Part shown: positions 1,301-62,534 of the stretch, in pieces
Layout: the number at the start of each line of letters is the position of its first letter
Numbering within the stretch: position 1 is the first letter of the stretch
Assembly (NCBI GenBank): GCA_914767715.1
Contig: OU612069.1
Span: 17,791,387 to 17,855,386 of the forward strand
DNA length: 64,000 nucleotides
Reading direction: 5' to 3'
Origin: Membranipora membranacea
Lineage: Eukaryota; Bryozoa; Gymnolaemata; Cheilostomatida; Membraniporidae
Made by a program: the position numbers and the translations under genes
The notes under the pieces: model-generated
What the model saw: the letters and a program-made list of their open reading frames with translations, nothing else
The model's database searches: none
What the model was told of the DNA's origin: nothing

Positions 1301-2239
1301 GTGAGTTATTATTTTGTAATGTTCAGGATTGTTCAGCATTAACCTTTCCGCCAACAATGTAATTCTTGTGGACGTGGTACCAATGTCAGGTCCAGTATTA
1401 TCTGGTGATAGCCCATTTAGCTTACCATTTAAATAATTGTAAGGACATTCAAACGAAATTGCTATACATATTTTATTTTTATTGGCACTGAAGGATTTTG
1501 GTATACGCCATCTTTACAATGAAATATTTGTCCTATTTAGTTGTATATCCACTGTAAATTCAAAAACGAGTGAAGACCCCGTTATTTTCAGTTGTCTGAT
1601 TTACATGTCATTAGAGCTCCATCCACACAATAGATTAACCAAAGAACTTACATTCTCCTCTGTAGGTATCCAACAGTATGTGAATCATTAATACATAAAT
1701 ACCCATTTCTGGCTGATGACAGCGCATCCTGTACCGGTGTAGTATTGTAAACTGTCCCCCGCGCGAAAACAACCCCGGGACACTTTACAATATTGTAAAC
1801 TGTCCCGGGGACACTTTACAATAAAAACAGGCCTATTGTAAACTGTCCCCCCCTATTGTAAACTGTCCCCCCCCTATTGTAAACCGTCCCCCCCCTATTG
1901 TAAACTGTCCCCCCTATTTGTGACTGTCCATATCGAGAGCCCAGCTGTTTATCACCATTCTAAATGGGTCAGATCATCTAAGTGGAGCATACCATGATGT
2001 TCTGGCTGCCACTATGATGGCCAAAGTTGTACCATGGGGATGGTGGTGGTATCTCATTGAATGAGTGTATAAAGCCTCTTTTTCATATGGTACTTTGGGG
2101 ATCTATTTTTCGCAAACACTAGTTATTTAAAGCTCCTATGATTTAGAGATGTCTTGTTTGCGAAGAAAGGTGCACTAAGCCAACAGTGGATAGATGTGTA
2201 GTTGCCACATCACAGAACACACATACTTTCATTGCAGGT

Positions 2240-4500
2240 TCATGAGCCGCGCGAAAACAACCACCCCATTCATTCATCATTAAAATCTACCTCCGTCAAG
2301 CATTTGCCTAGGAGTGATGGCAGTCAGTCACAAGTGTGAGCGGGAGAAATAATTACTTTTGAGCTTTTCATATTGTGAGGATGGGTATTGCACTGTAAAA
2401 TATTGCTTAAGCCGCGCGAAAACAACCACCCCCTAAGCTGTCTTATAAAGATATCTGTTAAAAAGTCTCAAACATAATGAACCGTGATTTTGCATCCATA
2501 ATGCGATTATCATAAGGTGACTGTGTACCAAATTTCAGATTAGTAGGTCAGAACTTAATGACACAACGGATGATATGTCGTTCTTTGCAAGTTCATGAGC
2601 CGCGCGAAATTAACCACCCCATTCAGTCATCTTGAAATCTACCTCAATCAAGCATTTGCCTGTGAGTGATGAAAGTCAGTCACATGTGAGACCTGGAGAA
2701 ATAACGACTTTTGAGTTTTTCATATTGTGCCGCCTGGTATTGGACTGTAAAATATTGCTTAAGCCGCGCGAAAACAACCACCCCCCAAAGTGTCTTATAA
2801 AGATTATCTGTCAAAAAGTCTCAATCATAATGAACCATGATTTGGCAGCCATAATTCGATTGTCATAAGGTGACTGTGTACCAAATTTCAGATAAGTAGG
2901 TCAGAAGTTAATGACACAACGGATGATATGTCGTTCTTTGCAAGTTCATGAGCCGCGTGAAAACAACCACCCCATTCATTCATCTTGAAATCTACCTCAA
3001 TCAAGAATTTGCCCGTGAGTGATGACAGTCAGTCACAAGTGAGAGTGGGAGAAATAACCGCTTTCGAGCTTTTCATATTGTGCGGCCTGGTATTGCCCTG
3101 TAAAACATTGCTTAAGCCGCGCAAAAACAACCACCCCCCAAAGTGTCTTATAAAGATAATCTGTTAAAAAGTCTCAAACATAATGAACCGTGATTTTGAA
3201 TCCATAATGCGATTATCATAAGGTGACTGTGTACCAAATTTCAGATTAGTAGGTCAGAACTTAATGACACAACGGATGATATGTCGTTCTTTGCAAGTTC
3301 ATGAGCCGCGCGAAATTAACCACCCCATTCAGTCATCTTGAAATCTACCTCAATCAAGCATTTGCCTGTGAGTGATGAAAGTCAGTCACATGTGAGACCT
3401 GGAGAAATAACGACTTTTGAGTTTTTCATATTGTGCCGCCTGGTATTGGACTGTAAAATATTGCTTAAGCCGCGCGAAAACAACCACCCCCCAAAGTGTC
3501 TTATAAAGATTATCTGTCAAAAAATCTCAATCATAATGAACCATGATTTGGCAGCCATAATTCGATTGTCATAAGGTGACTGTGTACCAAATTTCAGATA
3601 AGTAGGTCAGAAGTTAATGACACAACGGATGATATGTCGTTCTTTGCAAGTTCATGAGCCGCGCGAAAACAACCACCCCATTCATTCATCTTGAAATCTA
3701 CCTCAATCAAGAATTTGCCTGTGAGTGATGACAGTCAGTCACAAGTGAGAGTGGGAGAAATAACCGATTTCGAGCTTTTCATATTGTGCGGCCTGGTATT
3801 GCCCTGTAAAACATTGCTTAAGCCGCGCAAAAACAACCACCCCCCAAAGTGTCTTATAAAGATAATCTGTTAAAAAGTCTCAAACATAATGAACCGTGAT
3901 TTTGAATCCATAATGCGATTATCATAAGGTGACTGTGTACCAAATTTCAGATTAGTAGGTCAGAACTTAATGACACGACGGATGATATGTCGTTCTATGC
4001 AAGTTCATGAGCCGCGCGAAATTAACCACCCCATTCAGTCATCTTGAAATCTACCTTAATCAAGCATTTGCCTGTGAGTGATGAAAGTCAGTCACAAGTG
4101 AGACCTGGAGAAATAACCACTTTTGAGGTTTTGATATTGTGCCGCCTGGTATTGGACTGTAAAACATTGCTTAAGCCGCGCGAAAACAACCACCCCCCAA
4201 GCTGTCTTATAAATATTATCTGTCGAAAAGTCTCAAACGAAATGAACCATGATATCTAGCAATAATGTGATTGTCATGAAGTGACTGTGTACCTAATTTT
4301 GGATTAAAAGGTTAGAAATTAATGACACAACGGATGATATGTCGTTCTTTGCAAGTTCATGAGCCGCGCGAAAACAACCACCCCATTCAGTCATCTTGAA
4401 ATCTACCTCAATCAAGAATTTGCCTGTGAGTGATGACAGTCAGTCACAAGTGAGACTGGGAGAAATGACCGCTTTTGAGCTTTTCATATTGTGCGGCCTG
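2240..4500 (+). repeat. 353-bp tandem array, left arm
   Basis: There are about six units of 353 bp. Two variants alternate (starts near 2632, 2985, 3338, 3691, 4044), giving a higher-order period of 706 bp. Each unit contains the box CCGCGCGAAAACAACCACC twice, after ATGA and after CTTAA, about 160-190 bp apart. Short open frames of 60-78 codons recur in each unit but start at TTG and are by-products of the repeat. Confidence 0.85.
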
Positions 4501-6320
4501 CTTGATTGAGGTAGATTTCAAGATGACTGAATGGGGTGGTTGTTTTCGCGCGGCTCATGAACTTGCAAAGAACGGCATATCATCCGTTGTGTCATTAAGT
4601 TCTGACCTACTAATCTGAAATTTGGTACACAGTCACCTTATGACAATCACATTATGGCTACCAAATCATGGTCAATTATGATTGAGAATTTTTGACAGAT
4701 TATCTTTATAAGAGACTTTCGGGGGTGGTTGTTTTTGCGCGGCTTAAGCAATGTTTTACAGGGCAATATCAGGCCGCACAATATGAAAAGCTCGAAAGCG
4801 GTCTTTCTCCCAGTCTCACTTGTGACTGACTGTCATCACTCACAGGCAAATGCTTGATTGAGGTAGATTTCAAGATGACTGAATGGAGTGGTTGTTTTCG
4901 CGCGGCTCATGAACTTGCAAAGAACGACATATCATCCGTTGTGTCATTAATTTCTAACCTTTTAATCCAAAATTAGGTACACAGTCACTTCATGACAATC
5001 ACATTATTGCTAAAAAATCATGGATCATTTCGTTTGAGACTTTTTGACAGATAATCTTTATCAGACAGCTTGGGGGGTGGTTGTTTTCGCGCGGCTTAAG
5101 CAATGTTTTACAGGGCAATATCAGGCCGCACAATATGAAAAGCTCAAAAGTGGTTATTTCTCCAGGTCTCACTTGTGACTGACTTTCATCACTCACAGGC
5201 AAATGCTTGATTGAGGTAGATTTCAAGATGACTGAATGGGGTGGTTGTTTTCGCGCGACTCATGAGCTTGCAAAGAACGACATGTCATCCGCTGTGTTAT
5301 TAAGTTCTGACCTACTAATCTGAAATTTGGTACACAGTCACCTTATGACAATCACATTATGGCTGCCAAATCATGGTCCATTATGATTGAGACTTTTTGA
5401 CAGATTATCTTTATAAGACACTTTGGGGGGTGGTTGTTTTTGCGCGGCTTAAGCAATGTTTTACAGGGCAATACCAGGCCGCACAATATGAAAAGCTCGA
5501 AAGCGGTTATTTCTCCCACTCTCACTTGTGACTGACTGTCATCACTCACAGGCAAATTCTTGATTGAGGTAGATTTCAAGATGAATGAATGGGGTGGTTG
5601 TTTTCGCGCGGCTCATGAACTTGCAAAGAACGACATATCATCCGTTGTGTCATTAACTTCTGACCTACTAATCTGAAATTTGGTACACAGTCACCTTATG
5701 ACAATCGAATTATGGCTGCCAAATCACGGTTCATTATGATTGAGACTTTTTGACAGATAATCTTTATAAGACACTTTGGGGGGTGGTTGTTTTCGCGCGG
5801 CTTAAGCAATATTTTACAGTCCAATACCAGGCGGCACAATATGAAAAACTCAAAAGTCGTTATTTCTCCAGGTCTCACATGTGACTGACTTTCATCACTC
5901 ACAGGCAAATGCTTGATTGAGGTAGATTTCAAGATGACTGAATGGGGTGGTTGTTTTCGCGCGGCTCATGAACTTGCAAAGAACGACATATCATCCGTTG
6001 TGTCATTAAGTTCTGACCTACTAATCTGAAATTTGGTACACAGTCACCTTATGATAATCGCATTATGGATGCAAAATCACGGTTCATTATGTTTGAGACT
6101 TTTTAACAGATATCTTTATAAGACAGCTTAGGGGGTGGTTGTTTTCGCACGGCTTAAGCAATATTTTACAGTGCAATACCCATCCTCACAATATGAAAAG
6201 CATAAAAGTATTATTTCTCCCGCTCACACTTGTGACTGACTGCCATCACTCCTAGGCAAATGCTTGACGGAGGTAGATTTTATGATGAATGAATGGGGTG
6301 GTTGTTTTCGCGCGGCTCAT
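4501..6320 (-). repeat. 353-bp tandem array, right arm
   Basis: The same 353-bp units occur in inverted orientation, about five copies (5226, 5579 and 5932 mark equivalent points). The right arm is shorter than the left by roughly one unit, so the foldback is not symmetrical. The junction at 4500/4501 joins the middle of a left-arm unit directly to a different point of an inverted unit. Confidence 0.85.
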
Positions 6321-7065
6321 GAACCTGCAATGAAAGTATGTGTGTTCTGTGATGTGGCACCTACACATCTATCCACTGTTGGCTTAGTGCACCTTTCTTC
6401 GCAAACCAGACATCTCTAAATCATAGGAGCTTTAAATAACTAGTGTTTGCGAAAAATAGATCCCCAAAGTACCATATGAAAAAGAGGCTTTATACACTCA
6501 TTCAATGAGATACCACCACCATCCCCATGATACAACTTTGGCCATCATAGTGGCAGCCAGAACATCATGGTATGCTCCACTTAGATGATCTGACCCATTT
6601 AGAATGGTGATAAACAGCTGGGCTCTCGATATGGACAGTCACAAATAGGGGGGACAGTTTACAATAGGGGGGGACATTTTACAATAGGGGGGGACAGTTT
6701 ACAATAGGGGGGGACAGTTTACAATAGGCCTGTTTTTATTGTAAAGTGTCCCCGGGACAGTTTACAATATTGTAAAGTGTCCCGGGGTTGTTTTCGCGCG
6801 GGGGACAGTTTACAATACTACACCGGAATGTAAGTATGCAATCATATTATGTCATAAAATGCATGTACCTCTGTTTCTGAGGTGTTGCTTCAATTAAACG
6901 AATCATTACCAGTCATCTGAAAGTTTTAAATTCTTGAGTAAGCAGCTTCGAGTTACCAGTATCAGCTTCACTTCATGTCATCTAACATGTCTGTACTCGA
7001 AAATCAAAACCTGTTCATGGAGAAACTGGTTCACTCTGAACAATAATGATTTTCTCACCACACAG

Positions 7066-7240
7066 CGATCTTTGGAGGAAGAAGCTCAAACGAAAGTTCA
7101 AAGACTATTAAAAGAACCTGGTGAGCCCTGAGATACTAGAGAGGAGGCATAAATATGCTACTGCCAAGAAAAGGTCAACGATTACATCCAGTGCTGCTAC
7201 AGAAGCTATTCCACCGCCATCACCAGTGAAAAGAAGCAAG
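7066..7240 (+). pseudogene. Exon with in-frame stop, SAMD3-like gene
   Basis: The acceptor is CACACAG and the donor is GCAAG|GTACAG. In the phase given by the split exon it reads IDLWRKKLKRKFKDY, then TAA at 7109-7111, then KNLVSPEILERRHKYATAKK and a Ser/Pro-rich tail ending PPPSPVKRSK. Both sides of the stop are coherent in one frame, and a single change from AAA would explain the TAA. The basic LxRKFKxY segment is the expected continuation of the KYPFLxD motif in this family. The stop suggests the gene is already a pseudogene, independent of the transposon insertion. Confidence 0.55.
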
Positions 7241-7408
7241 GTACAGCAAATTATATCTGTTATCACTTGTCAATATACAAAAGCTAGTGCCTCACACTGT
7301 CTGAATTGGGTAAACGGAATTAGAATCTTGGGGCAATGCAATAACGCTGCTACACAACCGACGTATTGCAACATTTAAGTTCATCAATAACTGTGGCTAT
7401 ATCTTTAG

Positions 7409-7588
7409 GTTCCTAGTGCCGCGGCTGCCGATACGGAGATCGAATATGTCCAGACTGCACCGGAGAGAGAGGAAGTGCATGAAATGTTGGCCCGAACATG
7501 GGAGATGCGGATGCAGAGCATTATTGCTGCAGTTCTCGATCCAGTGTCAGAGATGGGGAAATGGCCTGACTTGTTCACATCTGAGCAC
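7409..7588 (+). CDS. Exon, SAMD3-like gene
   Basis: This 180-bp, phase-0 exon lies between ATCTTTAG and GAGCAC|GTAATT. It continues the previous frame as VPSAAAADTEIEYVQTAPER and ends ..KWPDLFTSEH. It encodes an acidic linker and then a helical stretch (EVHEMLARTWEMRMQSI). Its length is an exact multiple of three and both phases agree with its neighbours, which is good evidence for a real exon. Confidence 0.55.
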
Positions 7589-7807
7589 GTAATTCTGTCC
7601 TTTTAAATTTGACTGAGGACCACAGTCAAGTGATTGCGACTGTTCCATCAAATGTTTTAAGATACCCATTACTATGGCGACTTGACTTGTTGTACCCTCA
7701 TTGCAATGAGTCTAATTACAATAAATCCTTTGACAGAAAGGGTCAATTATGTTTACAATTCAATGACAAATAAGCTAAAATGTATTTATTTGCCTTTTCT
7801 ATTGCAG

Positions 7808-7991
7808 ATGTACACTGAAGATCTCAAACTGGCGGCTGTTGAATGTGGATTGGGAATGGGAATGTGTCCAGCCTCCCAAGTGTTTGAGACAGGAGTTGAG
7901 AAGTTGCTGGTGACGTTGAGCAAGGCTTTCCAAACTATGCTAAAAGAATACAAGAAAGCTCAGCCCTATTTAAAGAAATATCAAGGACAAA
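7808..7991 (+). CDS. Exon, SAMD3-like gene
   Basis: The exon follows the acceptor TTTTCTATTGCAG and ends at the donor CAAA|GTAACT in phase 1. It encodes MYTEDLKLAAVECGLGMGMC and later LLVTLSKAFQTMLKEYKKAQ. The frame stays open past the donor to a TAG at 8087, so an unspliced reading would add about 30 residues. The spliced reading is preferred because the next exon (8331) begins in exactly the needed phase. Confidence 0.5.
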
Positions 7992-8330
7992 GTAACTATT
8001 TTTCTTTAGATAAGAATGATCTTATAGAGCAGACCAACACCATTCCCACAATGCAACATCAGACCAGAGATCCCAGGACGAGCAGTTAGATATCAATTAT
8101 ACTGAATGGCCAACCTGATCTGAATTGTATTTTGGGATAGGATATATGATTATTGGGGGAAGGATTAAGATGCACCCAATATCAATAATTACTCACTTAT
8201 AGGTGAATGTACCAAAAAGTCCCCATTGTAAAAATTGAACACCCTGAGAGCGGTAAATGAGCTGGTAATACTAAACATGTGTAGGGCACTTTGTTTCTTA
8301 GTTTTATGTCAGTCTTATTTCTGTTTATAG

Positions 8331-8421
8331 ATTATGATATGTCTCTCAGTACATTGGGCCTGATGCTGTTGCCGTTAAGTTTGGGAGAAATTCAGAATCA
8401 CCTCTACTATGAGAAAGAAGA
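8331..8421 (+). CDS. Exon, SAMD3-like gene
   Basis: The acceptor is CTGTTTATAG and the donor is GAAGAT|GTAAGT. It reads YDMSLSTLGLMLLPLSLGEI and ends HLYYEKED in phase 0. This hydrophobic segment is followed, after a 502-bp intron carrying a SINE, by the terminal exon at 8924. A second frame is open over part of the exon, so the phase match on both sides is the main support. Confidence 0.45.
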
Positions 8422-8660
8422 TGTAAGTTTTTGTATATCATATCTAGTGTTTCTGACAAACAAGGAACTTTGATTTGATTATTTTACTGTCACAGTTTCG
8501 ATGGAAAAAGTTTGTTGCACTGCTTCCCAAATGTGTTTTAATACTTATATTACCTGGTTAGATGAAAAGGTACATGTTATAACCTTTCACTGACACAGTC
8601 ACTGTTATGCCTCTTTGGCTAAGGCTTATTATGTATCAACAACACTTATTTGTAGTATTT

Positions 8661-8830
8661 TGTGGCGCGATGGGTAAGGCATGGGTCTTTCAATTGAGAG
8701 GTCCTGTGTTCGATTCCCGGTGTGTCAGGGTGGTGTCAAAAAGAGCATCCGACCTCAAATGCTCCTGTGCCCCATCAGGATCCAGTCCGTAGACCCGTAC
8801 TGATACTGAGACAAAAGACCAAGCACCATC
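8661..8830 (+). mobile_element. tRNA-derived SINE in an intron
   Basis: The sequence has a box-A-like segment (TGGCGCGATGGGTAAGG, from 8662) and a good box B (GTTCGATTC, about 8708-8716), spaced as in a tRNA promoter. It is followed by a body with GAGCATCCGACCTCAAATGC, a block similar to the conserved tail of several animal SINEs. It is a degenerate tRNA shape rather than a working tRNA gene. It lies inside the intron 8422-8923 of the SAMD3-like gene; a poly-A or simple-repeat tail was not clear. Confidence 0.65.
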
Positions 8831-8923
8831 ATGGTTTCTCACACGGTATCACAGGGTATCAGGACTATAAATGGATGTGAGTTTTTGTTACATATTAACA
8901 TTTTCTGTGTGATTCTTTGGCAG

Positions 8924-9196
8924 CTGCAAGATGTGTCCAAGAAGCTGGTGCTAGGAATACAGGAGAACAGCATCACCATATCGCTCGACAGAACCGAAAT
9001 TGTTCAGAGGTTGACACCGGCAGAAGCTCTTGCTGCATTCTTCAGCCTGCACCATATTCGGGCAATACATTACCAGCCAAAAAGCTGTATGACCCTGCTA
9101 GAATATTGTGCAGGCTTAAAATATAAGTCAAAAATCAAAGTGGCAGCAGTCACAACTCTTATCGATAAGTTGTCGCTTTCTGCTTCGTTTTATTAA
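8924..9196 (+). CDS. Terminal exon, SAMD3-like gene
   Basis: The acceptor is TTCTTTGGCAG and the frame ends with TAA at 9194-9196. It reads LQDVSKKLVLGIQENSITIS, then a segment with TPAEALAAFFSLHHIRAIHY and MTLLEYCAGLK. In the family as I recall it, the C-terminus has a short beta-rich part followed by a helix reading like ALxYxxxxxYPKxxxxTLxFL; the arrangement here is compatible. No AATAAA is evident in the first 100 bp downstream. Confidence 0.5.
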   Translation: MQDVSKKLVLGIQENSITISLDRTEIVQRLTPAEALAAFFSLHHIRAIHYQPKSCMTLLEYCAGLKYKSKIKVAAVTTLIDKLSLSASFY

Positions 9197-11559: not shown

Positions 11560-12024
11560 TTCTGCTCATTCTCAGAGAAACTTGAAAACAATGTTTGATA
11601 AAACACTTATTATTGAATGGAGTGAAGTCACATAGGACTTCACAACTTTTTTCAGATCAACTTGCATGCAAATGACCCCCAGCCTCATTTCAAAGGAATG
11701 TTTTATGAAACCATTTATAGCATGACCCTTACTTTCATTCCAGTTTCATTAAATTGGGAATTTGTGTTTGCTTTGCATAGAAGAAAAACAGTCTATGTTA
11801 AAATAATAAGAAAGGGAAAGAAAGGGGTGTGTTTTACATTTGAGATAGGGTGTATACAGACAATGTGATAGAGGCTTGTAAAACTATTGTGTTCCTAAAC
11901 CATATCATATCATTTATCTTCATTGAAATAGATAATCAAATGTTATAACAGTTGATTTTTTTCATCAATATTACAGAAAAAAGAAGAACAGAAAGAAAGG
12001 CTAGCTGTTGGACATTCAAACAAA

Positions 12025-13242
12025 ATGCTGATAAAATGTATTGCCCTTTTCACAGTCCTTGGACTTATTCCTCTTTACCCTGCATCTGATTTACCATCAG
12101 ATGTATCAGTTGTAAAACAAATTGGGAGGGGTGAGAGAAATCAAGAGCTTTTCATATTGCTCGCAGAGATGCAAAATGTTACCTCAAATGAAATTGAAGC
12201 ACACAAAGCACAAGGAAATAACCAATATCTTCTTGCAACCTCGCTAAACAAAAATGAGGATAACACCCTTGGCATAAAGTCGCGTAAAGTGAAGTTTTAT
12301 CGCAATATCAGTCCGAAAGATTTGAAAGAGGGTGTGAATGGCTGTGATGAATCCTCAATTGTTGATATAAATGAAATTCAAACAAAATTGAAATCTGATG
12401 ATAAAATTCAAAAGAGAGGCAAGAAAACACTGATTCATACTGAACTTTGTTTTTTATGTAGTACTGACTTTCGTGCTGAACTTGAAGCTGGTGGAATATT
12501 TTTGCTCTACAGCTATTACATTCCATGTTCAGGACTATCTAAGGTTAGTTTTGGTGAATGTGCAGCTGATATGGCATCCTATCGATATAAATCTAGAGGC
12601 AAAGTTCATTTTATTATTGTTTATGATGAATATTTCGTTAAAGGGAGCAGCGGTAGCAACGAAAAGCTATCCAAATTGTATTTAGCACTAGCAGGCATTC
12701 CTCTTTTGCAGCTTACAAGCAATAAAACATCCTGTGCTCCATCAAACTATAATCACACAATGCTCCAATCACACATAGACAATCCTGTATATCAGCGTTT
12801 TCCCAGGGTATTTAAGCATAGTACAACCAATAAATGTACTGTATTCTCAGAATGCCTAGCACGTGGTAACTTCATTCAGTCATTGACAAAGGTAAATCGA
12901 AGCTTGTCAAACATCCCTTTGACTAATGTTGATATAATCATGACAGAATTTGTGAATGAGTATTTTTTGGGCGTGAGTGGTTCTGTACCAATAAGTAACT
13001 ATTACACATTTGAACGTCTTACAACAAGACAATTAGCAAAATTAAATAGTGAAGCAAATGAAATTGGAAAGCGTTGTTTCCTTTTTATGGATTGTCTACA
13101 ATCAAACTGTACTGATACAGAATTGGTTCTTGATCATTCATTGAAAGAAAAATTGGATAAAAGAATAAAAAGAGACAGGGATGAGCTCTGTAGCTATTTT
13201 GGTGGGAGACTGCTGAAAGAAAAGCCTAATATCTGTTTATGA
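12025..13242 (+). CDS. Secreted AID/APOBEC-like cytidine deaminase (SNAD-like)
   Basis: This 405-residue, single-exon frame starts at 12025 with a signal-peptide-like N-terminus (basic Lys4, hydrophobic residues 5-18, likely cleavage near PAS22-D). The deaminase core follows the AID/APOBEC order: H138-T-E140 in HTELCFL (family form HxELxFL), a strand IFLLYSYYIPC with P167-C168, then C179 in GECAADMASY, the strand VHFIIVYDEYF (193-204), and the helix-strand KLSKLYLALAGIPLLQL (214-230). H138, C168 and C179 would bind zinc and E140 would be the proton donor. The spacing PC-x10-C is longer than the usual PCxxC. Sequons at about 51, 233, 243, 291 and 361 and many cysteines fit an extracytoplasmic protein. 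The 170-residue C-terminal part is unrecognised. Known relatives deaminate C to U in single-stranded nucleic acid; activity here is inferred. The frame is intact. Confidence 0.7.
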   Translation: MLIKCIALFTVLGLIPLYPASDLPSDVSVVKQIGRGERNQELFILLAEMQNVTSNEIEAHKAQGNNQYLLATSLNKNEDNTLGIKSRKVKFYRNISPKDLKEGVNGCDESSIVDINEIQTKLKSDDKIQKRGKKTLIHTELCFLCSTDFRAELEAGGIFLLYSYYIPCSGLSKVSFGECAADMASYRYKSRGKVHFIIVYDEYFVKGSSGSNEKLSKLYLALAGIPLLQLTSNKTSCAPSNYNHTMLQSHIDNPVYQRFPRVFKHSTTNKCTVFSECLARGNFIQSLTKVNRSLSNIPLTNVDIIMTEFVNEYFLGVSGSVPISNYYTFERLTTRQLAKLNSEANEIGKRCFLFMDCLQSNCTDTELVLDHSLKEKLDKRIKRDRDELCSYFGGRLLKEKPNICL

Positions 13243-14608: not shown

Positions 14609-15712
14609 CTCACCTATCCTCACCAATCTCCGCTCTGTCCTGTCCGGGTAGTGGGTATCTACCGGAGGCCTAGCTCTATCAAACTTCTCCATCTAATCCT
14701 GTCCTGAGCATCCTCTTCACTGAGGGAACAGGATTGGAGATCATTCCTGACTGTATCCTTCCATCTATGCTTTGGGCGTCCCCGAATTCTCTTCCACTCT
14801 CATCTCATGTACTCTTCTGATTTCATAATCTTCCTCTCTTCTGCACACATGCCCAAACCACTGCAACCTTCTTCTTCTCATAAAGTCTAACACACTCATG
14901 ACATTCGCTTCTTGTCTTATACTTTCGTTGGTTTGGTGCTCCTCAAGACTAATTCCAAGACAGTATATCAACATTCTCATCTCACATACAATGAATCCTT
15001 CAGCAAGATAATCTGTCAATGGCCATGTTTCAGCTCCATACAATAACACCAGGTGTATCACTGTCTTATAAATGAGCACCTTCAACTTCTGAGGGACTAT
15101 CCTGTCGCACAATACTCCCATCAACTCTTGCCACTTATCCCAAGCTCTGCCAATGCACACTTGTACCTCTGCCTTGCATCCTCCTACCTGGTAAACTGTA
15201 GTCCCCAGGTATTTGAATGTGGTTCTTTGAGGCAAAGTGGCATGTGCAGGGCCATCATATTCCTTTAATCTGATGTTGTCATTACTGTCTTTTGGGGGTA
15301 GGTACTCAGTTTTAGACCTGCAGAATTTTAGGCCCACATCCTCTAATATTCTTCTCCTGTCCCCTAATCTCTCTTCCATATCATCTCAACTCTCATCACA
15401 TAAAACCAAATCATCTGCAAACAGCATACTTCATTGTGTGTCTTCTCCATCCGAGATAACAACCATTATAATTATAAAAAGTAATGGGCTAAGGGCTGAT
15501 CCTTGGTGTAGTCCAACTTCCACTCTCATTGCTTTTGTCTCTCCTGCATTTGTTACCACTCTTGTTGTTGAGTCAATGTACATATCCTTGATGATGTCAA
15601 TGTATACTTCAGGCACATGACAGACAATGCCGAATTAGCTCTCTTGGGATGGTATCATATGCCTTTTCCAGGTCAACAAATACCATATGCAGCTCCTTGT
15701 TGAATTCCCTAT
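14609..15712 (-). mobile_element. 5'-truncated RTE-like non-LTR retrotransposon
   Basis: The minus strand encodes reverse transcriptase pieces in several frames: FVDLEKAYDTIPRELI (about 15620-15700), then VGLHQGSALSPLLF (about 15475-15520), FADDLVLC (about 15400-15427), then a 204-residue C-terminal frame (14765-15379) ending with RRRLQWFGHVCRREED. These motifs and their order fit the RTE group. Frame changes show it is dead. The 3' end on the minus strand is a short tandem GGTGAGGATA tail. A 16-bp target duplication, TATTAGGACTATTATC, brackets it at 14593-14608 and 15713-15728, so the 5' truncation inside the RT happened at insertion. Confidence 0.85.
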
Positions 15713-26653: not shown

Positions 26654-26911
26654 TTTGGCGACAAGGATAAAACTCAAAAAGATTGAGGTGGAGAAGGAGA
26701 CTATGCCAAAGAGGGTGATAGATCCATAAACTGATGGTATGCAGCCAAACACAGACACAGACTAAGAGAAGAACAGAAGCCCATGACGGTGACGGAGACA
26801 GAAAAAACTATCAGAATAAGATAAGTTGATTTCCGGTTACTTGTAGTACTAATTGTAAACCTTTACCCATCAGAAAATTTTCACTGAATAGCGCATATCA
26901 GATCATAAAAG

Positions 26912-27586
26912 ATGAGTCTAGATATAGGACGCCCAGGTAATTTTGAGGTAGAAGGTGAGGCAAGTGTAGTAGCTACAGCTTGGTTGGCATGGATCGAGGA
27001 GTTCGATTGCTATGCAGATTGTAAGGGTTTGTTCAACCCCAGTGGAACTTCCGCTAAGGAAACATCGCTTAGGAGACAACACCAGGCATTGTTGTTGTTC
27101 TGTGGTGGACCACGTGTTCGGGAGGTGCTTAAGAATCATAACGATTCAATCGAGGAGGTTACTGAAAAATGTCAGCCCGATGATCATGATGGCACAATTC
27201 AAATCTTGAACGCGCATTTTTTGGTAAAACCAAATAAAAGGTTCATGCGTCATGTGTTTAGGCAAATGCTTCAGACTGCAGGTGAGACGATAGCTCAATT
27301 CGTAGGTAGTCTTAGGAAAGGTTCTGTAGGTTGTGAGTACGTTGATGTTAATGACTCGATAGCTGATCAGATTGTTTCAGGCTGCCATTACGATGCTCTT
27401 AGAAAAAAGTTCTTAGAAGCAGGGGCAACTCTTGACCTAGCAAAGCTAATGGGTATTTCAGCATCACATGAAGCGGTCGAAATGCAATATAGGGAAATGA
27501 GAAATGGTCAAAACTCTGGTGCTAGCGCTCATGCTAAAAGTAATGCTCATGAATTTCCCGATGCAACAGGTGGTGTCAACCGATAA
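26912..27586 (+). pseudogene. Gypsy-like gag
   Basis: This 224-codon frame has the retrotransposon capsid-like pattern AWLAWIEEFDCYADCKG near its N-terminus and a helical region with RFMRHVFRQMLQTAGETIAQ, as in gag proteins that build the particle. TAA at 27584-27586 is followed in the same frame by coding-like sequence (RGGKPKPRYEN) and another stop at 27661, so the original gag was longer. A 34-bp tandem duplication (27674-27741) directly upstream of the zinc knuckles shifts the frame. Confidence 0.8.
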
Positions 27587-27678
27587 GGCTTATTTGTTAG
27601 GCATGGAAATAGAGGCGGCAAGCCAAAACCCAGATATGAAAACTCCAATGGTGGTAAATCCTGAATCATGATATAGGT

Positions 27679-28515
27679 GTGGTTCTTCCAATCATATCGG
27701 TAGTGATTAGGTGTGGTTCTTCCAATCATATCGGTAGTGATACTAACTGCCCAGCTAAGGATAAGCAATGTAATAAATGCTCAAAAGTAGGTCATTTTGC
27801 TATTGCGTGTAGGAGTGTTGAACCTAAGAAAAAGATGCATTCTATATTGTCAGCTGGTAGTCAAAATGCTGATCAAGGACAGGCAGCATTTCAGTGCAAA
27901 ACTTTCAGGCCGATGTTTAATCTGGACAAGCTTGAAATCAGAGTAGGAAACATTCCGCTTGATGTGCTTGTAGATTCTGGCTCACAGAGCAATGTGATTG
28001 GTAAAGACACATTTGATTTACTTGTGTCAAGAGGTCTTAGAGCCAAAGTAGAGCCGACAGACCTGGAACTGTTTCCGTTTACTGCTGATAAGCCCTTAGA
28101 CTTGTTCGGATGCTTCAATGCGGAACTAGAAGCAGGAAATCAGCGGGCAACAGCTGAAATCATAATTATTAATGATAGGGATCAGACGTCGTTGTTGAGT
28201 AATGATACATCTCATGCACTAAAACTAATCAAAATAGGCTACAACGTAGGAGAAAATAGCTTAGATTCTAATACCAGTAATGCCAGTAATTACGGTAGTC
28301 TACTAGATAACTATAAGAATTTATTTTCAGGCGTAGGTAAATTCAAAGGCCCAGATATAAAAATAGGAATAGATCCTAATGTAGCTTCAGTGTGACAACC
28401 GTATAATCGCGTTCCATTCGCACTGAGGAGTAAAGTAGAGGCTAAACAAGAACAGCTAGTTAAATCAGATATCATAGAGGTAGTAGCAAAGCCTACACAG
28501 TGGATTTCACCTTTC
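27679..28515 (+). pseudogene. Gypsy-like zinc knuckles, protease and start of RT
   Basis: The frame carries a first CCHC knuckle (CGSSNHIGSD..) and a second, CNKCSKVGHFAIAC. An aspartic protease follows with the catalytic DSG in VDSGSQSNVIG (about 27969-28002). A stop at 28393 interrupts what continues as PYNRVPFALRSKVEAKQEQL and ends ..TQWISPF, the usual beginning of a Gypsy RT. At about 28516 homology ends abruptly at the nested insertion. The catalytic fingers region of the RT, about 60 residues, is missing. Confidence 0.8.
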
Positions 28516-28527
28516 ATTTCGGAAGCG

Positions 28528-29255
28528 CGACAACTTGGCCCGAACCAAACTTGGCCCCAAATATAAAACTTGGCCCGATGCAATGAAACTTGGCCCCAAT
28601 TAGTAAAACTTGGCCCCAAGTACTGAAACTTGGCCCCAATTAGTAAAACTTGGCCCCAAGTACTGGAACTTGGCCCCAATTAGTAAAACTTGGCCAAAAT
28701 ATAAAATTTGGCCCATGTACTGAAACTTAGCCCCAATAAGTAAAACTTGGCCCCAAATATGAAACTTGGCCCGATGCAATGAAACTTGGCCCCAATTAGT
28801 AAAACTTGGCCCAAATTAGTAAAACTTGGCCCCAAGTACTGAAACTTGGCCCGAATTAGTAAAACTTGGCCCCAAATACTGAAACTTGGCCCCAATTAGT
28901 AAAACTTGGCCCCAAGTACTGGAACTTGGCCCAAATTAGTAAAACTTCACTCCAAACATAAAACTTGGCCCCATGTACAGAAACTTGGCCCCAATTAGTA
29001 AAACTTGGCCCCAAATATAAAACATGGCCCCATGTTATGAAACTTTGGCCCAATTACTAAAGCTTGGCCCCAATTAGTAAAACTTGGCCCCATACAATGG
29101 AACTTGGCCCCAATTAGTAAAACTTGGTCCCAATTAGTGAAGCTTGGCCCCAATTAGTAAAACTTGGCCTAATGCAATGAAACTTGGCCCAATCTAAGTA
29201 AACCTTACCCCAATCAGTAAAACTTGGCCCCAAATACAAAACTTGGCCCAACATA
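28528..29255. repeat. 20-bp satellite array
   Basis: About 36 units of AAACTTGGCCCCAATTAGTA with a constant AACTTGGCCC core and a variable spacer (AATTAGTA, AAGTACTG, AAATATAA, GATGCAATG). Spacer types alternate in places, giving a local 40-bp period. Open frames on the minus strand here encode only the repeat. Confidence 0.9.
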
Positions 29256-30239
29256 GTAATATTGGTAAATAATACCAAAGTCAATTACCTTATCTGGTCG
29301 TTGAGACATAAATGCTATTATTTTTGTCATGCATTTAGATTATGAAATAAACGTGTGTAGCTGCAATAAACTTTTATTTAATACAATTAATTATCAGAAG
29401 CATCGATTTAAAAAAATGACAGAGAATTATGCATGTGTAGTAATAGTTACCTTATTATTGAATATAAAACTACAGAAGAACACAAAAGCCACTGTATCCA
29501 GGCAAAAATGATAATCCGTTCTTGCAAAATTAAACATTGTTTCCATTATAGAGACATAATGAATTTTTTGAGATTGAATATGTGATTAAAAATGAGATGT
29601 TTATAAAGTTTGATGCGAAATATAAAATAGAGCAAGCAGCTAGAATATTTATGCAATATCTAAATCTGAGCTAAAACCAATAGTTCTTGGAGTTTTATGG
29701 AACACAAAAATTTGGCTTTCAAGTGATAATACTTCGGTACTTCCATGTACTAAGATGAAAACTATTGAGAGACAAAATAAAATTTCTTCTGAGATTAGAA
29801 ATGAGGTATAAATAAGACAATTTACAATGTTTGTTGCAAAAATATAAATGAAACAGTATGGGCAGTTAGATTGTTAGCTATTTACAAAACTTAGTTTCAC
29901 AGTCTCCTAAGAGATAATTAATACATAAGTACCACCATGTAAAATGATGAACAAAAATATGAGATAAAAAACAAATTTCTGGGATAAGCAATGAGATGAA
30001 AATTAGAGAATTTATAATGATGATGCAGCAAACTAAATGAAACATAATTGGCAATAAGATTCTAAGTCTATCAATGCCATGAACCTTTTACAATGCATGT
30101 GTATGATATAATTGTAGGTTGATCAACAGCTCCTGCTCAGAGGCTGTGAATTCTTCATTCACATCTTTAGAGCAGGAGTCGTCCTCAACGGCAGGCAGCA
30201 TATGGTATGCCATATTTATTATTAGCCTGTAATAAATAT

Positions 30240-31180
30240 TGTCTTCATCGAGTCGATCCCAGGCTTTTACCCAAAAACCTGTTGAGTCTTTCATATTTTA
30301 ATTTTTTATTCAGACTGCTGAAGCCTGCTGGAATCTCTTTCAGCTCCAGTTCTACGGAAGATGACTCCTTCCGTAACTCTTCAATCAACATAAATGTTGG
30401 GGGCTTATCAACTCTTACCTGGCAATTAAACTTGTTATGCCAGCTTGAAAATGGAAACAATATTATTCAATATGCACACATAGCTCCTGTTTTTAAGAAG
30501 CCTGTGAATATTATTTACTTTCAAGCTATAGTAACGCCTCCCAATATTTGGTATCATATTGGATGTCTCGGGCTTATCAAGAGCACTGGATCTTGATTAA
30601 CCAGAGACCTCCAATAGAATTTGTGGCAACATTTCAGATAGCCTATGAATTCAGTTGTACCGATGAGCTTCATTCAAATAAATTTTCATCGTCATGTTAT
30701 TAGCAATTCTTCTACTACCTAAGCAATATGTCATATACCAAAAGGCGCTACTATAGCTTTAACTTTATGATTTAAAGCATAGATATTTGTAACACAGAAA
30801 CAAAATGTTGTTTGTTGCTCATTGCATACTGAATGATGAACCTTTCTGATCAAGTGAAGATTGCTTTACAAGGGTTCAAATATGAACAACCTTAAACGAA
30901 TTGTGAAATTGAATGACAGTTACCTTCCAGAGAGTTATTATTTTGTCCTTATCCTCTGTCGATACACACTCCAGAATTTGGCTCAAATCTTCCATGTAAT
31001 CTCAAAATACTCAAACAACTTCCTGAAGTGAGGCTCGTTGTTCTCTGCGACCACATAGCGATAAGCTTCTTGAATAAAGTGGACAGGTAGGTAGGAGAGC
31101 CCCCACAGAAACCCACAAACACGACGAGTGTTGTGGTGATGGCGATAGCCTGATGCGAGACCTGGAACATGCGCTATCAA
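30240..31180 (-). pseudogene. MULE transposase fragments
   Basis: At 30984-31180 the minus strand reads CGFLWGLSYLPVHFIQEAYR and then HFRKLFEYFEITW. This matches the MULE pattern in which LAFLPxxxVxxAF is followed after about 20 residues by LxxYFxxTW. Downstream, 30290-30440 reads PPTFMLIEELRKESSSVELE and ends KKLKYERLNRFLGK, similar to the C-terminal HPxxWxFIxxLKxEQ region and its basic KYxxLNxRL tail. The frames are interrupted and the DDE catalytic region was not found, so only the C-terminal half is supported. Confidence 0.5.
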
Positions 31181-31894
31181 GTTTTTGAGGTTGGGCTGAT
31201 GTGAGAAGTTATGCTAGTATAAAGTTTTTCTTTTTTCGTGGTTACTAACCTTGTAGAGAAATACGGCGATAAATTTTTGTACTTTCTCAATTATGACTAA
31301 ATAACTTCATAAAAAGTTAAAATTTGATATGTATTATATTATTGATATATCGGTTTATTGCATATTTATAATCATACTATTATTATCAATCATAGTCATA
31401 GTTATTTATGCATAACGTTTACTTCTTACCAAGCTTTTGCACTCTGCACCAAATGCATTTCCGGAAATGGAAGTTACATCCGACTATATGTACATCTTGA
31501 AACGCTGCTGAAGCAGCAGTCCAGATCCCTTTACAGACAAATGAGATGATTTTTTAATGATACAACTGTGCACAAGGCAATAAATGTCTTTTGTTTTATA
31601 CAAATCGGAGGATTGGTCAAGGAAATATTACAGCGAACAAGAACAACATTGCAAAACACTACCATGTTATTTGTTCTGTCACTGCGCGAAAAAAATTCAT
31701 AAAGATGATTGTATATTGACAATAAAAACGTATTATATGTACCAAGAAAAAATGAAGAAGTTGCCCTCAATTAACAAACCCCAAAACGAGGCTTCATTAT
31801 TGACATCTTGTGAATTAAAAGTTACAGTTTGTATTTAAAATTTTACAGCTCAGTCAGGTGTGTTTTGATATTCTTTCACGAACAATTTAATTTA

Positions 31895-32462
31895 ATTTGC
31901 GCTGCATCCTGATTCAAGGGATATCACAACATTCAGTTGTCACATTGGCTTATACCGATATAAGAGGTTATTTTATGGTTGCTCTATGGCTCCAGAGAAA
32001 TTTTATGCAGAGATTCATAGATTGATTCAAGGCATTCCAGGTGTAGCAAACCTCGCTGATGATATTATTATACATGGCTCAGACAGAGCTGAGCATGATG
32101 CTAGATTGATACAGGTTCTGGACAGGATCAAATCAGCAGGATTGACACTCAACAGGCAGAAGTGTACATTTGGTGTTGATGAGTTAGAATTTGTAGGTCA
32201 TAAACTATCAGCAAAGGGCATCGATCCGATGGCTGGTAAAGTTGATGCTATAGTAAATGCTAAGGAACCAACATGCATAGAGGAGTTGCGTTCTTTCTTA
32301 GGATTAGCTAATTATTGTAGCCATATAGCCATTATTGTTCATACCAGATTTCTCGACCAAGACAGAACCACTGCGCAGACTGAAAAAGCAGCCAGTAGAT
32401 GGCAAGCAGAAAGGTGTCAAAGAAAAATTTGTTCTCAACCGAGGGCAGATAGTATCGTTTGA
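31895..32462 (+). pseudogene. Gypsy-like reverse transcriptase, C-terminal part
   Basis: The RT resumes at LHPDSRDITTF (about 31903) and contains FYGCSMAPEKF and the catalytic-site strand LADDIIIHG (motif x-D-D at about 32055). The thumb/connection segment LRSFLGLANYCS is followed by a short insertion (about 14 bases, 32320-32335) that shifts the frame; the reading continues as FIPDFSTKTEPLRRL in the next frame. Confidence 0.85.
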
Positions 32463-32910
32463 GAAAGTGAAGAAAAGTCTAGCCAGTAGTGAGACTTTAG
32501 GTTATTTTGATCTCAAATATCCGACTAAGGTGGTAGCTGATGCAAGTCCTTTTGGTTTAGGTGCTGTTCTTATCCAGGATCAGGAGGATGGACCACGGGT
32601 TATTAGCTATGCATCGAGAAGTTTGAGTGATGTTGAATCTAGATACCATCAGACTGAAAGGGAAGCTCTAAGTTTGGTGTGGGCATTTGAAAGATTCAAG
32701 CCATATTTGATAGGCAATAAGTTCGATTTGGTTACAGACCATGAGCCACTGAAGGTTATTTATGGTCCGCATTCAAAACCATGTGCTAGGATTGAACGCT
32801 GGGTGTTACGTCTTATGCCATATTATTACACTGTAGTTTATTGATCAGGTAGCAAAAACATAGCAGACCCTCTCTTAAGGCTCTCAGCAAGTAAAGTTTA
32901 CGATTTGTCT
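32335..32910 (+). pseudogene. Gypsy-like RNase H
   Basis: The RNase H has the usual VVADASPFGLGAVL start, the second acidic site in ESRYHQTEREALSLVWAFER, and VTDHEPLKVI. A TGA at 32842 sits where the conserved segment continues as SGSKNIADPLSRL-like sequence; a single CGA to TGA change would account for it. Confidence 0.85.
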
Positions 32911-33061
32911 CTCACAAATAAGGCTGAAGCATATGTTAGATTTGTAGCTTTAAATTCTGTACCTAGAGCTATGACCGCTAAAGAGAATTATCCATTGTTA
33001 GGAAATGCATAAATTCAAATAATTTTGATGTTTGTGGTATATTAAAGTCGTATAAGCTAAT

Positions 33062-34020
33062 TAGTGGTGAATTGTGTGTGATAGGAAACCTAGTATTGAG
33101 AGGCAGCAGAATAGTCATACCCTCTCAACTCAGACCACATGTTAAATTTAGCCCATACAGGACATCTAGGGATTGTTGGTACTAAGAGGAATTTGAGGAC
33201 TAAGGTCTGGTGGCCAAACATTGATAGCGATGTGGACAAACACATCAAAGCATGTCATGAGTGTCAATTAGTAGGTAAACCAAGTTCTCCAGAACCCATG
33301 TTGAGTTCTGACCTCCCAACAGCGCCATGGAAGGAAGTTGCGGTAGATCATTTTGGTCCATTTGGTCATTCTAGCCAGTACTTGCTTGTTGTTATTGACT
33401 ATTATAGTAGGTATTTTGAGTGCATTCTGGTGAAATCCACCAGTGCTGCAACCACACTAAAGATATTAGATGAAGTTTTTCAAACTCATGAAATCCCACA
33501 GTACTTGAAAAGTGATTCAGGACCAGCTTTCATCTCAGAGGATTTTAGGAAATTCTGTGAGAATTTGGCAATTAAACGCAGCAGGGGTACACCTAAGTGG
33601 TCTCAAGGTAATGGTCTTGTTGAATCATCAATGAAGTCCATAAAGAAAAGGCTTCAAACAGCCGTGACTACAGGAAAAGATTGGGGAAGTGAACTCCACA
33701 AGTATTTATTTTCTCATGGAAATACCCCCCATCCTGCGACTTGTAAGAGTCCAGCAGAACTATTATTTGGTCGTAAGCTGCGTACCAAATTACCCATGTA
33801 TGATAATGATAGTAAGTTAGATGATGTTCAGGTCAGACAGCATGACGCTGAATATAAGGCTAAAGTAAAAGAATACACTGACCGTAAGCGCAAGGCTGCA
33901 AACTCTAGTATTTCTATCGGTGATGAAGTTTTACTCATCAGAGATCAAATTTCACAAGAAACTGATGATACAATGATAATGTATGTAGTAATGAACAAAA
34001 ATGGGTCACAAGTACTGTAG
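33062..34020 (+). pseudogene. Gypsy-like integrase
   Basis: The N-terminal zinc-binding HHCC motif is present (HTGHLG..CHECQ), followed by the catalytic core: D in VAVDHFGPFG, D in LKSDSGPAF, and E in GNGLVESSMKS, the D,D-35-E arrangement. A small deletion near 33138 puts the upstream part (LVLRGSRIVIPSQLRPH) in another frame. The C-terminal domain (GDEVLLIRDQ) changes frame again and ends in the segment 34044-34328. Confidence 0.85.
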
Positions 34021-34043
34021 GATCCTCAGATGGACGAGAATAT

Positions 34044-34328
34044 GTGCGTAACAGCTTCCATCTGAGACCCTACAAGAGAACCCATGAAATCATACACTCT
34101 TCTTTTGTAGATGCCGGTATCGTAGGCACCACAGAGGAAGAAAAGAGGGAAAATAGTGTCAGAAGATCGCCACGCCATAAGAACACTCCAGACAGATACA
34201 CTAACTATCTAAGCAGTCTCAAGGATTACTACGACTTCTGCTACACGTATTATCAAGGGACTCAGCCTAATACGTCATGTCAAAAGTGCCTGATGCACTG
34301 CAGCACAACAGAGTCGAGAGGAGAGTGA
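34044..34328 (+). pseudogene. C-terminal tail of Gypsy-like pol
   Basis: The frame reads NSFHLRPYKRTHE and then RRSPRHKNTPDRYTNY. A basic SxRxxxxPxRY tail is common at the end of Gypsy polyproteins. It is separated from the integrase frame by a stop at 34018 and a frameshift. Confidence 0.7.
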
Positions 34329-59102: not shown

Positions 59103-59449
59103 GATACAAATCAGTACTCTTTTAAAAAGAGGTAACAAATTCTGCCGCTTAACCTATTTAAATTTAAATAGAACGTCCCAGCGACATAACCCTTTGTTTT
59201 GACTCAATAAATAGAACAGTTTAACACTACTTTAAATCTAAACCTTTATATCCTTGTACAAATCCACACACACCAACCCTCAAAACCATTATAAAACCCT
59301 TTAAACCATTATACCAAAGCCATTTTTATAAATACTCATAAAACGTCAATGCCTTCTTATTGCTTCTTATTGCTTCTTTTGTTTTCGCATGGTCTTATTT
59401 GCTTAATGCATTGATCGGTGGTTGATAAAAGTTCATAATATATATATTA

Positions 59450-60312
59450 TTGATCAGTAAACTCCCAAATCAACAGACAAAGACATTTCATTTTCATCTG
59501 ATGAGGGCAACTGAAATATGCTTAGTTCAGATCAACTTGCAGCACGCCAAAGCTAGTACAGCCCTACTCTGTAAACAGCTGGCTCAACTGCACACATCCA
59601 AAGCACTTATCCATGAGCCCTTGGTCCATAAATCAAAAGTGTCTGGTTTCCAAGCCCTGAAATCACATCATGTTTTCTATGATAAAACCCAGCCCACACC
59701 CGTGTTGCCATTGCATTTGCCAAAAAACTCACCGCCTTTCCCTGCCATGCTACTTGTAAGAGGGGACAGCCTTTTTGACTTTCTTTTGACCAATAATCTT
59801 GATGTTGCAAAAGTAGGCCAGAAACCGACATTTCTATCAACTAATTATAACCCCATAATATATCTGCCCTTGTTACTCCATCTGTATCGAACAGGATAAA
59901 ACAGTGGAAGGTCAATAATAGAGAAACTCTCTCTGACCACAGACAGATTGAGTTCACTCTAACCAACACCCATATACCAATAACCTTATATCAAAATCAT
60001 AGGAAAAAAAACAAAGAAGAGTTTGAGCACTCTATTCAAGAGAAAATATCGTCAATGGAGTTTGACTCCCCAGTTGATCCACATGGCCACACAGAAACCC
60101 TTCTTCACTTAATTGATCATTCAACAAATAACCTAACTGAAATCATACAATCATCATTTGCCTTAGCCTGGCCTCAAGCAAAGTTCAGAGGATGCAGATT
60201 TAACCCATGGTGGAAAGCTGATTTAAGACGGCTGAGAAGAAATACCAAAACAGCATTGCAAAAGGCTCGCAGAAGTTCAAATGGCCAAAATAATGAAAAT
60301 CTTCCAGGTTAA
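59450..60312 (+). pseudogene. Endonuclease domain of the I-like element
   Basis: The APE-type endonuclease nicks target DNA for target-primed reverse transcription. Seen here are the N-terminal QINLQHxKA motif, GDSLFDFLLTNNLDV..PTFLS where the family has a conserved NxG-PTF region, and SDHRQI, the catalytic SDH motif. The GDFN motif expected between them is not readable. The linker to the RT has FNPWWKADLRRLRRNTKTAL, the PWW..L..LRR segment of this group. Confidence 0.7.
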
Positions 60313-60639
60313 AACTGGGAAACCTACACATCGCTCAGAATAGAATAATAAAAACAAATCAATCAAGCCAAAGTCCTCTCCTGGCAACGATTCTGCGCTT
60401 GAGTGCATCATCCAAAATTCAAAAACTATTATGCAAAACCAATGAATATTAATTGGATTGTTTAAGAAAGCCTGATGGATTTTTAAAATCAATTCATGGT
60501 GACACCTTTCAGGTCCTTTTATACTGGCAATCATGTTTCATCTCAGTCCGAGCTCCCCATTAGCATCCAAAGCTGGAATGAAATCAAACAGAATGATTAC
60601 AGAACAAAAGATAACATGCGCAGTGAATAATTTTCAACC

Positions 60640-61098
60640 ATGCAAACCCCTGGGCCAGATGGAATCTTTCCTATTTGCCTTAAGCTTGCGCTACCCTATG
60701 TGTCACATGCTATCGCTGAATTATTCAAACTGGTACTCATTATAGGTTATATCCCAAAGACCTGGCCACAGACCAAAGTTATTTTTATCCCGAAAGCCGG
60801 TAAAATAGACTATTCTAACCCAAAATCATTCCATCCAATAAGCCTAACATGTTTCTTATTGAAATCATAGGAACTCCTCTCCCCCCTTCTTTGGAATCTT
60901 GTATTGGATAAACTCATAATCACATTTTACAGAATCACAATATGGTGTCTGGGATATGCCAATGACCTAGCCATCTGTATAGAAATCCAAGTGCCACAAG
61001 TCATAGCAGAAGTTACTCAGTTTGCTCTTGGATTCAAAGAAAATTGGTGCAAAACCCATGAATTAAGGTTGAATCCAAAAAAAGGAGTCTGCTGGTAA
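60640..61098 (+). pseudogene. Reverse transcriptase of the I-like element, internally deleted
   Basis: The start (TPGPDGIFP..TWPQTKVIFIPKAGK..FHPISLTCFLLK) is joined within about 25 bp to GTPLPPLLWNLVLDKL, which normally lies some 80-100 residues further on. The active-site strand reads YANDLAI instead of YADD. The end has LGFKENWCKTHELRLNPKK. Confidence 0.75.
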
Positions 61099-62534
61099 CA
61101 AAGAAAACAAAAAACTCGCTAACCAACATGAAAATTTTTGAGGATCAGATTCAATACCAAAAATATGTTAAATAGTTTGGTATTTTTATTGACCAAGGAT
61201 TGACATGGTCACACCACATAAACCAAAAAGCTCTGTCCATCATGTGGATGTGTAAAAAACGCAATTAATAAAACTAGGGGACTTGATCCGAAGCAGATGT
61301 TATGGATCCTACAATCAATTGTACAGACCGGCTTTCTTCATGGTGCGTTGGTCTGGTGGGAAGCAGTCCAAAAATCCTCATGTTCAGCCAAGATTGCCAG
61401 ATTTAACAGATCAGCTCTTTTACTGGCAACTGGTGCTTTTAAAAGAACACCAGGATTAGCCCTCGAGGTTCTTTTTTAACATTATCCCACTAATTGAAAT
61501 AAACAAAGCAGGCTGCTATGAACTCATTGTACCATCTGGTTCATAGCAGCATGCTCTTAAGTTCAAACACATATAATCACACTAAAATTGTTGATCATTA
61601 TATGTCTGATCTCATCCACCAACCAAATTACCACAAACACAGAGAAATTTTATTTTGCCACCCAAATAGTGAGTTTTCATTCAACGATATCACAAAGCAG
61701 AAATTACAAGAATTTCAATAGCTGCCATGGTTCTTGAATTTTCCAGGAATAGAAAAATAGCTATAATCACAGACAGTCTCTGTTCACTCCAGTCCCTTAA
61801 AATCCCTGAAGTTAGAACAAAAACCAAACACAACTTAAATACCCTTGAGAAGAGTAACTCTATCACACTTATCTGGGTCCTTGCCCACTCCGAGATCTAT
61901 GGTAATGTGCATGTTGATGAGCTTGTTAACCTGGGAGGTGCACTTGATACCCTCGATCCTGAACCCTCACCCCCTATTGTTCAAACAGTCTAAAACAAAA
62001 AATAAAAGAACAAGCTATCAGCTCTTTTGAAGATAAATGGTTCAACTCAATGAAACGTACAAAAACAAAAACCATTACTAAAAATATCAAGGGTCAAATA
62101 TCAAAACCCCCGTTGCAACTCAGAAGGCCACTTCACTTCGGTTGTAAACACTATCACAGGTCATGGTCCTGAACACTTCAACTGAATGAACGTCGCTGAC
62201 AAGTCACCCTGTCCTCAATGCAGTGCGGTATCAGATTCAAATACTCTTTTTTTGGACTGCCCAAATTACTCAAAAATCAGAGAGAAAACACCCAAACAGA
62301 TATAAATATCAAAAATAAAATAGAACTTTGTATTAAGATGATGGATCTGACTGACTTCATTAAATTGTCTGACAGATATACTACCATTCATGTGACATGT
62401 GCCATTCATTGGTTGGCCAAATGTACAAACAATTGTCAAGCTTTCAGCTTATATAATGCAACTAATTCAAGATCTCAAGAGCGGTCACACATATATGCTA
62501 ACACGATGGAGGTTAGTGAGATACGATCGAGTGA

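Follow-up and report, generated by a model that had tools for sequence, protein, structure and literature searches.

Does a marine bryozoan secrete a deaminase of the AID/APOBEC type whose zinc motif departs from the usual spacing? The question is raised by a gene in a 64,000-nucleotide stretch of Membranipora membranacea DNA, the window of this study (contig C5, 17,791,387-17,855,386), for which an initial annotation made from the sequence alone had proposed a secreted AID/APOBEC-like deaminase. The coding sequence with its stop occupies 12025..13242 on the plus strand, from the ATG at 12025 to the stop at 13242; it encodes 405 residues in a single exon and has full-length relatives. On balance, and with modest confidence, we favor the view that the product is a secreted, zinc-dependent deaminase with an AID/APOBEC-like fold, belonging to a distinct clade that is multi-copy in this species.

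The predicted structure carries this reading. An AlphaFold model built without templates, modest in confidence (predicted local distance difference test, pLDDT, 60), places a deaminase-fold domain at approximately residues 55-233 (12187..12723, plus strand), with a helix between strands 4 and 5, the AID/APOBEC-type order of elements. A Foldseek search with this model returned APOBEC3 structures in rows 1-19, and VIA-align returned AID/APOBEC structures in 50/50 rows. The fold claimed in the initial annotation was thus backed by the element order and by both sets of matches, and we regard a deaminase fold for the window protein as very probable.

The segments on which that annotation relied were all present in the translation: HTELCFL from residue 138, IPC at 166-168, GECAADMASY at 177-186, VHFIIVYDEYF at 194-204 and KLSKLYLALAGIPLLQL. 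The motif of the window protein reads HTE-x26-PC-x10-C. By comparison with AID, H138-T139-E140 (12436..12444) would supply the zinc histidine and the catalytic glutamate, P167-C168 (12523..12528) the first zinc cysteine, and C179 (12559..12561) the second, all on the plus strand. In profile-profile alignments with AID and two APOBEC3G domains, HTE fell on HVE, PC on PC, and C179-A on the second C-A of AID across an eight-residue gap; the motif residues therefore align with those of AID and are also conserved among the relatives. The same gap agrees with the suggested loop insertion before the second zinc cysteine: according to the alignments and spacing counts, ten residues (12529..12558, plus strand) separate the two cysteines, eight more than in AID. 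Residues 167-178 of the model have a pLDDT below 50. In an alignment of eleven proteins, including both the leader and the leaderless forms described below, Q67, Y68, N94, D108, H138, T139, E140, L160, Y162, S163, I166, P167, C168, C179, and A184 were invariant. N94 (12304..12306, plus strand) and an aromatic residue two places before P167 were each kept in 14/14 alignment rows. The available part of one source names N51 and W84 of AID as components of the catalytic pocket (PMC8201067); by analogy, N94 may stand in for N51 and the aromatic residue for W84. We consider it likely that the window protein is a working zinc enzyme.

A chance open frame was rejected, given that the stop-free run at the gene spans 428 codons against a maximum of 198 in 60 sequences of 64 kb simulated with matching dinucleotide composition, and that full-length relatives exist. 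An origin as a phage, viral-contig or prokaryotic gene was likewise rejected, relatives being absent from the genome contigs, viral contigs and phages searched, as was identity with known anti-phage proteins (PADLOC matched 0/6 members). An NCBIfam scan of four members gave only one weak, unrelated match. The invertebrate source supposed in the initial annotation is upheld by clustered Antennapedia homeodomain matches (92% for the query on contig C1, with five matches within ~61 kb) and by COX1, which reads better with the invertebrate mitochondrial code 5 than with code 9 (NHKDIG kept). On the same grounds we rejected a sponge origin, a possibility raised by the SNAD4 matches and by two papers that locate SNAD4 in sponges (PMC11004436, PMC8201067). 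Inspection by eye also located a candidate 3' splice site (attacag) at 11970..11976, plus strand, which would belong to an intron in the 5' leader.

Residues 1-20 (12025..12084, plus strand) form a probable signal peptide, as had been proposed; this is judged from hydropathy, with a 12-residue maximum of 2.52 starting at residue 6, and by eye. Its cleavage site is uncertain and not of the textbook kind, and by eye clearer examples were seen in the relatives P0008 and P0012 (VCVAHA/A). Inspection also showed that the predicted start of P0006 lacks a leader and that the leader of P0005 may be a membrane anchor. N-glycosylation sites were rejected as evidence of secretion: five were present versus 3.8 expected, and the fraction of shuffled sequences with as many was 0.337. 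Judged from its sequence, the window protein is probably secreted. The remainder of the chain, residues 236-405 (12730..13239, plus strand), is predicted to be a helical domain with conserved cysteines (pLDDT 76.8; predicted template modeling score 0.77). Fold searches with the model of these residues, a region that the initial annotation had been unable to place, found no solved structure resembling it. C237, C277, C351, C389, and C404 are conserved across five aligned proteins, and the region is probably an accessory domain held by disulfides.

The window protein (P0001, locus L001) belongs to a family. A protein search revealed four full-length relatives, P0002-P0005, with 41-45% identity, and a search with their alignment returned the same four; an alignment trimmed to the domain added twelve more, P0006-P0017 (E 3.3e-8 or better), several of them fragments. 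The bryozoan's own genome (339,339,785 bases, 18 contigs) was also searched; locus counts from it are lower bounds, the best candidates having been scored. With the window protein as a query, at least six loci were found, L001-L006, the first being the gene itself. L002 lies on contig C5, 232 kb from the window gene (40% identity), L003 (37%) contains one stop within the matched stretch, L004 shows 38% identity, and L005 and L006 are distant; L006 as a query added L035, L036, and L037. By eye, database protein P0017 is nearly identical to L005. All nine family loci found carry HTE together with PC-x9-C (L005, L035-L037) or PC-x10-C (L001-L004, L006). The motif was complete in 12 of 15 aligned rows, ten of them with x10 and one each with x9 and x11; of the remaining rows, P0009 has no HTE, and P0011 and P0012 end inside the motif. 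Thus, the PC-x10-C spacing that the initial annotation considered unusual for this copy is real, but it is clade-wide and not peculiar to the window protein.

Two forms can be distinguished within the family. L001-L004 have a hydrophobic leader, identified by eye in L002-L004, together with a cysteine-containing C-terminal region. L005, L006, and L035-L037 have no leader in the open frame, although upstream exons could still be missed, above all in L035, and they end or differ after strand 5. The distance from HTE to PC is 30 in the leaderless loci versus 26 in the leader form. On an unrooted FastTree phylogeny of 14 domains, the four leaderless proteins included formed one group (support 1.000) whose long branch attaches close to P0006 (support 0.719). 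L003 and L004 share 60.5% of residues over 418 codons, with a proportion of nonsynonymous differences of 0.256 and a saturated synonymous proportion of 0.751; such sequence divergence fits purifying selection. Comparisons of L001 with each of the other loci are saturated at synonymous sites, so we make no statement on the rate at which the window gene evolves.

Several members show peculiarities of their own. L035 and L036, at ~4.05 Mb on contig C10, are nearly identical leaderless members ~5.8 kb apart and are likely the result of a recent tandem duplication. P0009 lacks the whole HTE segment and otherwise resembles P0012 (83.6% over 122 residues); it may be a member without catalytic function, or its gene model may be broken. 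The sequences of P0011, P0012, and P0013 break off inside the PC-x10-C segment (their last residues are PCAGLA, PCAGLAQ, and PCAGLAGSSFG, respectively); an exon boundary might lie in the insert, or these might simply be the ends of fragments.

The same genome also holds classical deaminase genes. The APOBEC_N profile gave at least 12 matches, 12 of them over the cut-off, and the SNAD4 profile at least 15, with 11 over the cut-off; in a control, 8/14 prokaryotic genomes also matched SNAD4, none of them over the cut-off. The matches to both profiles were mostly at the same places on contigs C5, C6, C7, and C10, and none fell on the loci of the window family. Ten APOBEC_N loci (L007-L016) were fetched: six have HAE in one open frame, followed by PC-x2-C in five and PC-x6-C in L007, while a scripted scan of L010, L013, L014, and L016 detected no such motif within one frame. 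These loci are partly clustered; in three of those on C5, stops lie between the matched parts and may reflect introns. SNAD4 has been placed in sponges, according to the accessible text of two papers (PMC11004436, PMC8201067); its profile also matches in a bryozoan, for which newness is not claimed. The suggestion of a new subclade is supported. The family looks like a distinct multi-copy clade in M. membranacea, an unlisted branch of the animal deaminases.

The sequence case is weaker than the fold case, and some results weigh against the proposed reading. A Pfam scan of the window protein gave no match. The alignments with AID/APOBEC3G had low HH probabilities, 3.4 and 5.8%. Moreover, SWSPC is replaced by [YF]IPC, which is the strongest argument against a nucleic acid substrate and leaves cytosine deamination of nucleic acid less than certain. 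Some relatives of the window protein gave AID/APOBEC-family matches in Pfam, below the thresholds: P0002 matched APOBEC_N with 15 bits against a cut-off of 25, the sole such match among the four close relatives, and P0002 and P0005 matched SNAD4 (PF18750), the best whole-protein score of any member being 14.1 bits versus a cut-off of 27. Membership in the SNAD family, as initially suggested, is not borne out by these values. P0003 had a weak match to an unrelated family. The trimmed domains of five members matched SNAD4, NAD1, and APOBEC_N, either below the cut-off or with bits not shown, and no AID/APOBEC-type Pfam match was obtained for ten of the relatives found later or for five genome loci. 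The AID/APOBEC3G alignment scores were 22.8 and 24.4 against best shuffles of 22.7 and 22.6; they were reached by 0/500 shuffles in each version, the first exceeding its shuffles only by a hair. When the SNAD4-type proteins of the same genome were added to the template, the score was 32.6 (probability 35.5%, P 3.9e-4) versus a maximum of 19.3 in 398 shuffles, and with more family members it was 34.3 (probability 48.5%, P 1.8e-4).

If the protein is catalytic, H138, C168, and C179 would together hold one zinc ion, E140 would shuttle a proton, and N94 with the aromatic residue before IPC would help to hold the base. The target would be a base, with cytosine the most likely one, in microbial or viral nucleic acid that is exposed, and the enzyme would deaminate it extracellularly or after uptake. 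Stability or target binding could come from the C-terminal domain with its cysteines, and the branch without a visible leader might act inside cells. Secreted APOBEC-like animal enzymes have been predicted, and the accessible portions of the same papers call their catalytic activity unknown (PMC11004436, PMC8201067). Nucleic-acid deamination in defense is a role that we put forward tentatively; our gradings of the fold, the enzyme and this role are judgments and not computed values.

An unlikely alternative is that the protein has a deaminase fold but is past catalysis, being secreted to bind nucleic acid or microbes and having a zinc site that is structural. The loss of SWS would suit such a binder, as would P0009, otherwise alike without its HTE segment, and the C-terminal domain may itself suggest binding. 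However, H, T, and E occur together in 13 of 17 alignment rows, the other four being P0009, the misfitting fragments P0014 and P0016, and P0015, which starts later; a pure binder would have no need to keep E140. Somewhat less probable is an enzyme that deaminates free nucleosides or nucleotides, with cytidine, adenosine or a modified base as the target, and not polynucleotides, and that acts in extracellular salvage, signaling or feeding. Here the loss of SWS has a parallel in APOBEC4, where it has been taken as a hint of other substrates (PMC8201067, available part), whereas the Foldseek rows are APOBEC3, polynucleotide and not nucleoside deaminases, and the helix between strands 4 and 5 follows the AID/APOBEC order, neither of which settles the substrate. 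An independent origin, for example by capture of a bacterial toxin-like deaminase, is improbable: the family scored only 15.6 and 18.6 against the SNAD4-type set alone, while AID/APOBEC3G scored 87.7, and bacterial toxins have been named as a possible source of the SNADs themselves (PMC8201067, in the part available), but searches at the sensitivity used revealed no relative in prokaryotes, viral contigs or phages, and the three Pfam families matched by the trimmed domain are all AID/APOBEC-like.

A secreted AID/APOBEC-like deaminase remains the preferred reading. A bolder extension, which we regard as rather doubtful, is that the family represents a separate lineage of animal mutator enzymes with a zinc-site architecture of its own (a conserved 9-11 residue segment between the cysteines), a secreted form with the helical domain and an intracellular form without it; it would exist beside the SNAD4-type set and may stem from an independent deaminase capture. 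Having SNAD4-type loci side by side with a second clade of different structure, this bryozoan lends itself to comparison: it becomes possible to test whether a nucleic-acid deaminase can be active with zinc cysteines spaced so differently, and whether such enzymes serve animals extracellularly. For base-editor engineers, too, the arrangement of the loop may be of interest.

Other elements were observed in the window. A 5.1 kb palindrome (1734-6826) has outer arms, 1734-1873 and 6687-6826, that are 100% complementary, and it encloses 353-base tandem repeats that face in opposite directions. In layout it is like a foldback-type element, and a target-site duplication of more than 6 bases was looked for and not found. 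Several open stretches at 7112-9196 (plus strand) resemble exons of one gene; none matched a Pfam family above its cut-off, and the two pieces compared with the PDB had no relative there. The region 26909-34328 retains parts of a Gypsy-type retroelement, namely a zinc knuckle (below the cut-off), reverse transcriptase, RNase H and integrase in separate frames, and within this element lies a 20-base tandem array of ~35 copies (28547-29249). A frame at 14765-15385 (minus strand) resembles, by eye only and with no Pfam match, a piece of a retroelement without long terminal repeats (non-LTR), and another non-LTR-like frame at 59429-61993 (plus strand) has an RNase H match just below the cut-off at 61673-61990.

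Among known systems, the AID-like proteins of sea urchins are likewise invertebrate AID/APOBEC-like proteins, but they are ~193-194 residues long with HxE-PCxxC; the terms "signal peptide" and "secreted" do not occur in the available part of the source (PMC5956068). SNAD1 of fishes is probably secreted, as is the window protein, and two SNAD1 orthologues have been detected in nurse shark plasma, as given in the accessible part of PMC9207270. The window protein has neither a SNAD1 profile match nor the PCx2-4C spacing of the canonical motif, HxEx25-30PCx2-4C (PMC11004436, available text); this spacing of AID/APOBEC-like deaminases is replaced in the family by PC-x9 to x11-C, and L007, which is over the APOBEC_N cut-off, has PC-x6-C. 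With AID/APOBEC3 (PF08210), the window protein shares the fold found by Foldseek and VIA-align, the aligned zinc motif and, through P0002, a single sub-threshold APOBEC_N match. It differs in having HTE and not H[AVS]E (PMC5956068, same part), [YF]IPC for SWSPC, eight extra inter-cysteine residues, a probable leader and the extra C-terminal domain. The likeness to SNAD4 comprises the deaminase fold, HxE with two zinc cysteines, the weak profile matches of P0002 and P0005, and a probable leader. In contrast to SNAD4, the family scores below the cut-off, has PC-x9-11-C in place of the short spacing and carries an additional C-terminal domain, and the bryozoan's own SNAD4-type loci form a set separate from the window family.
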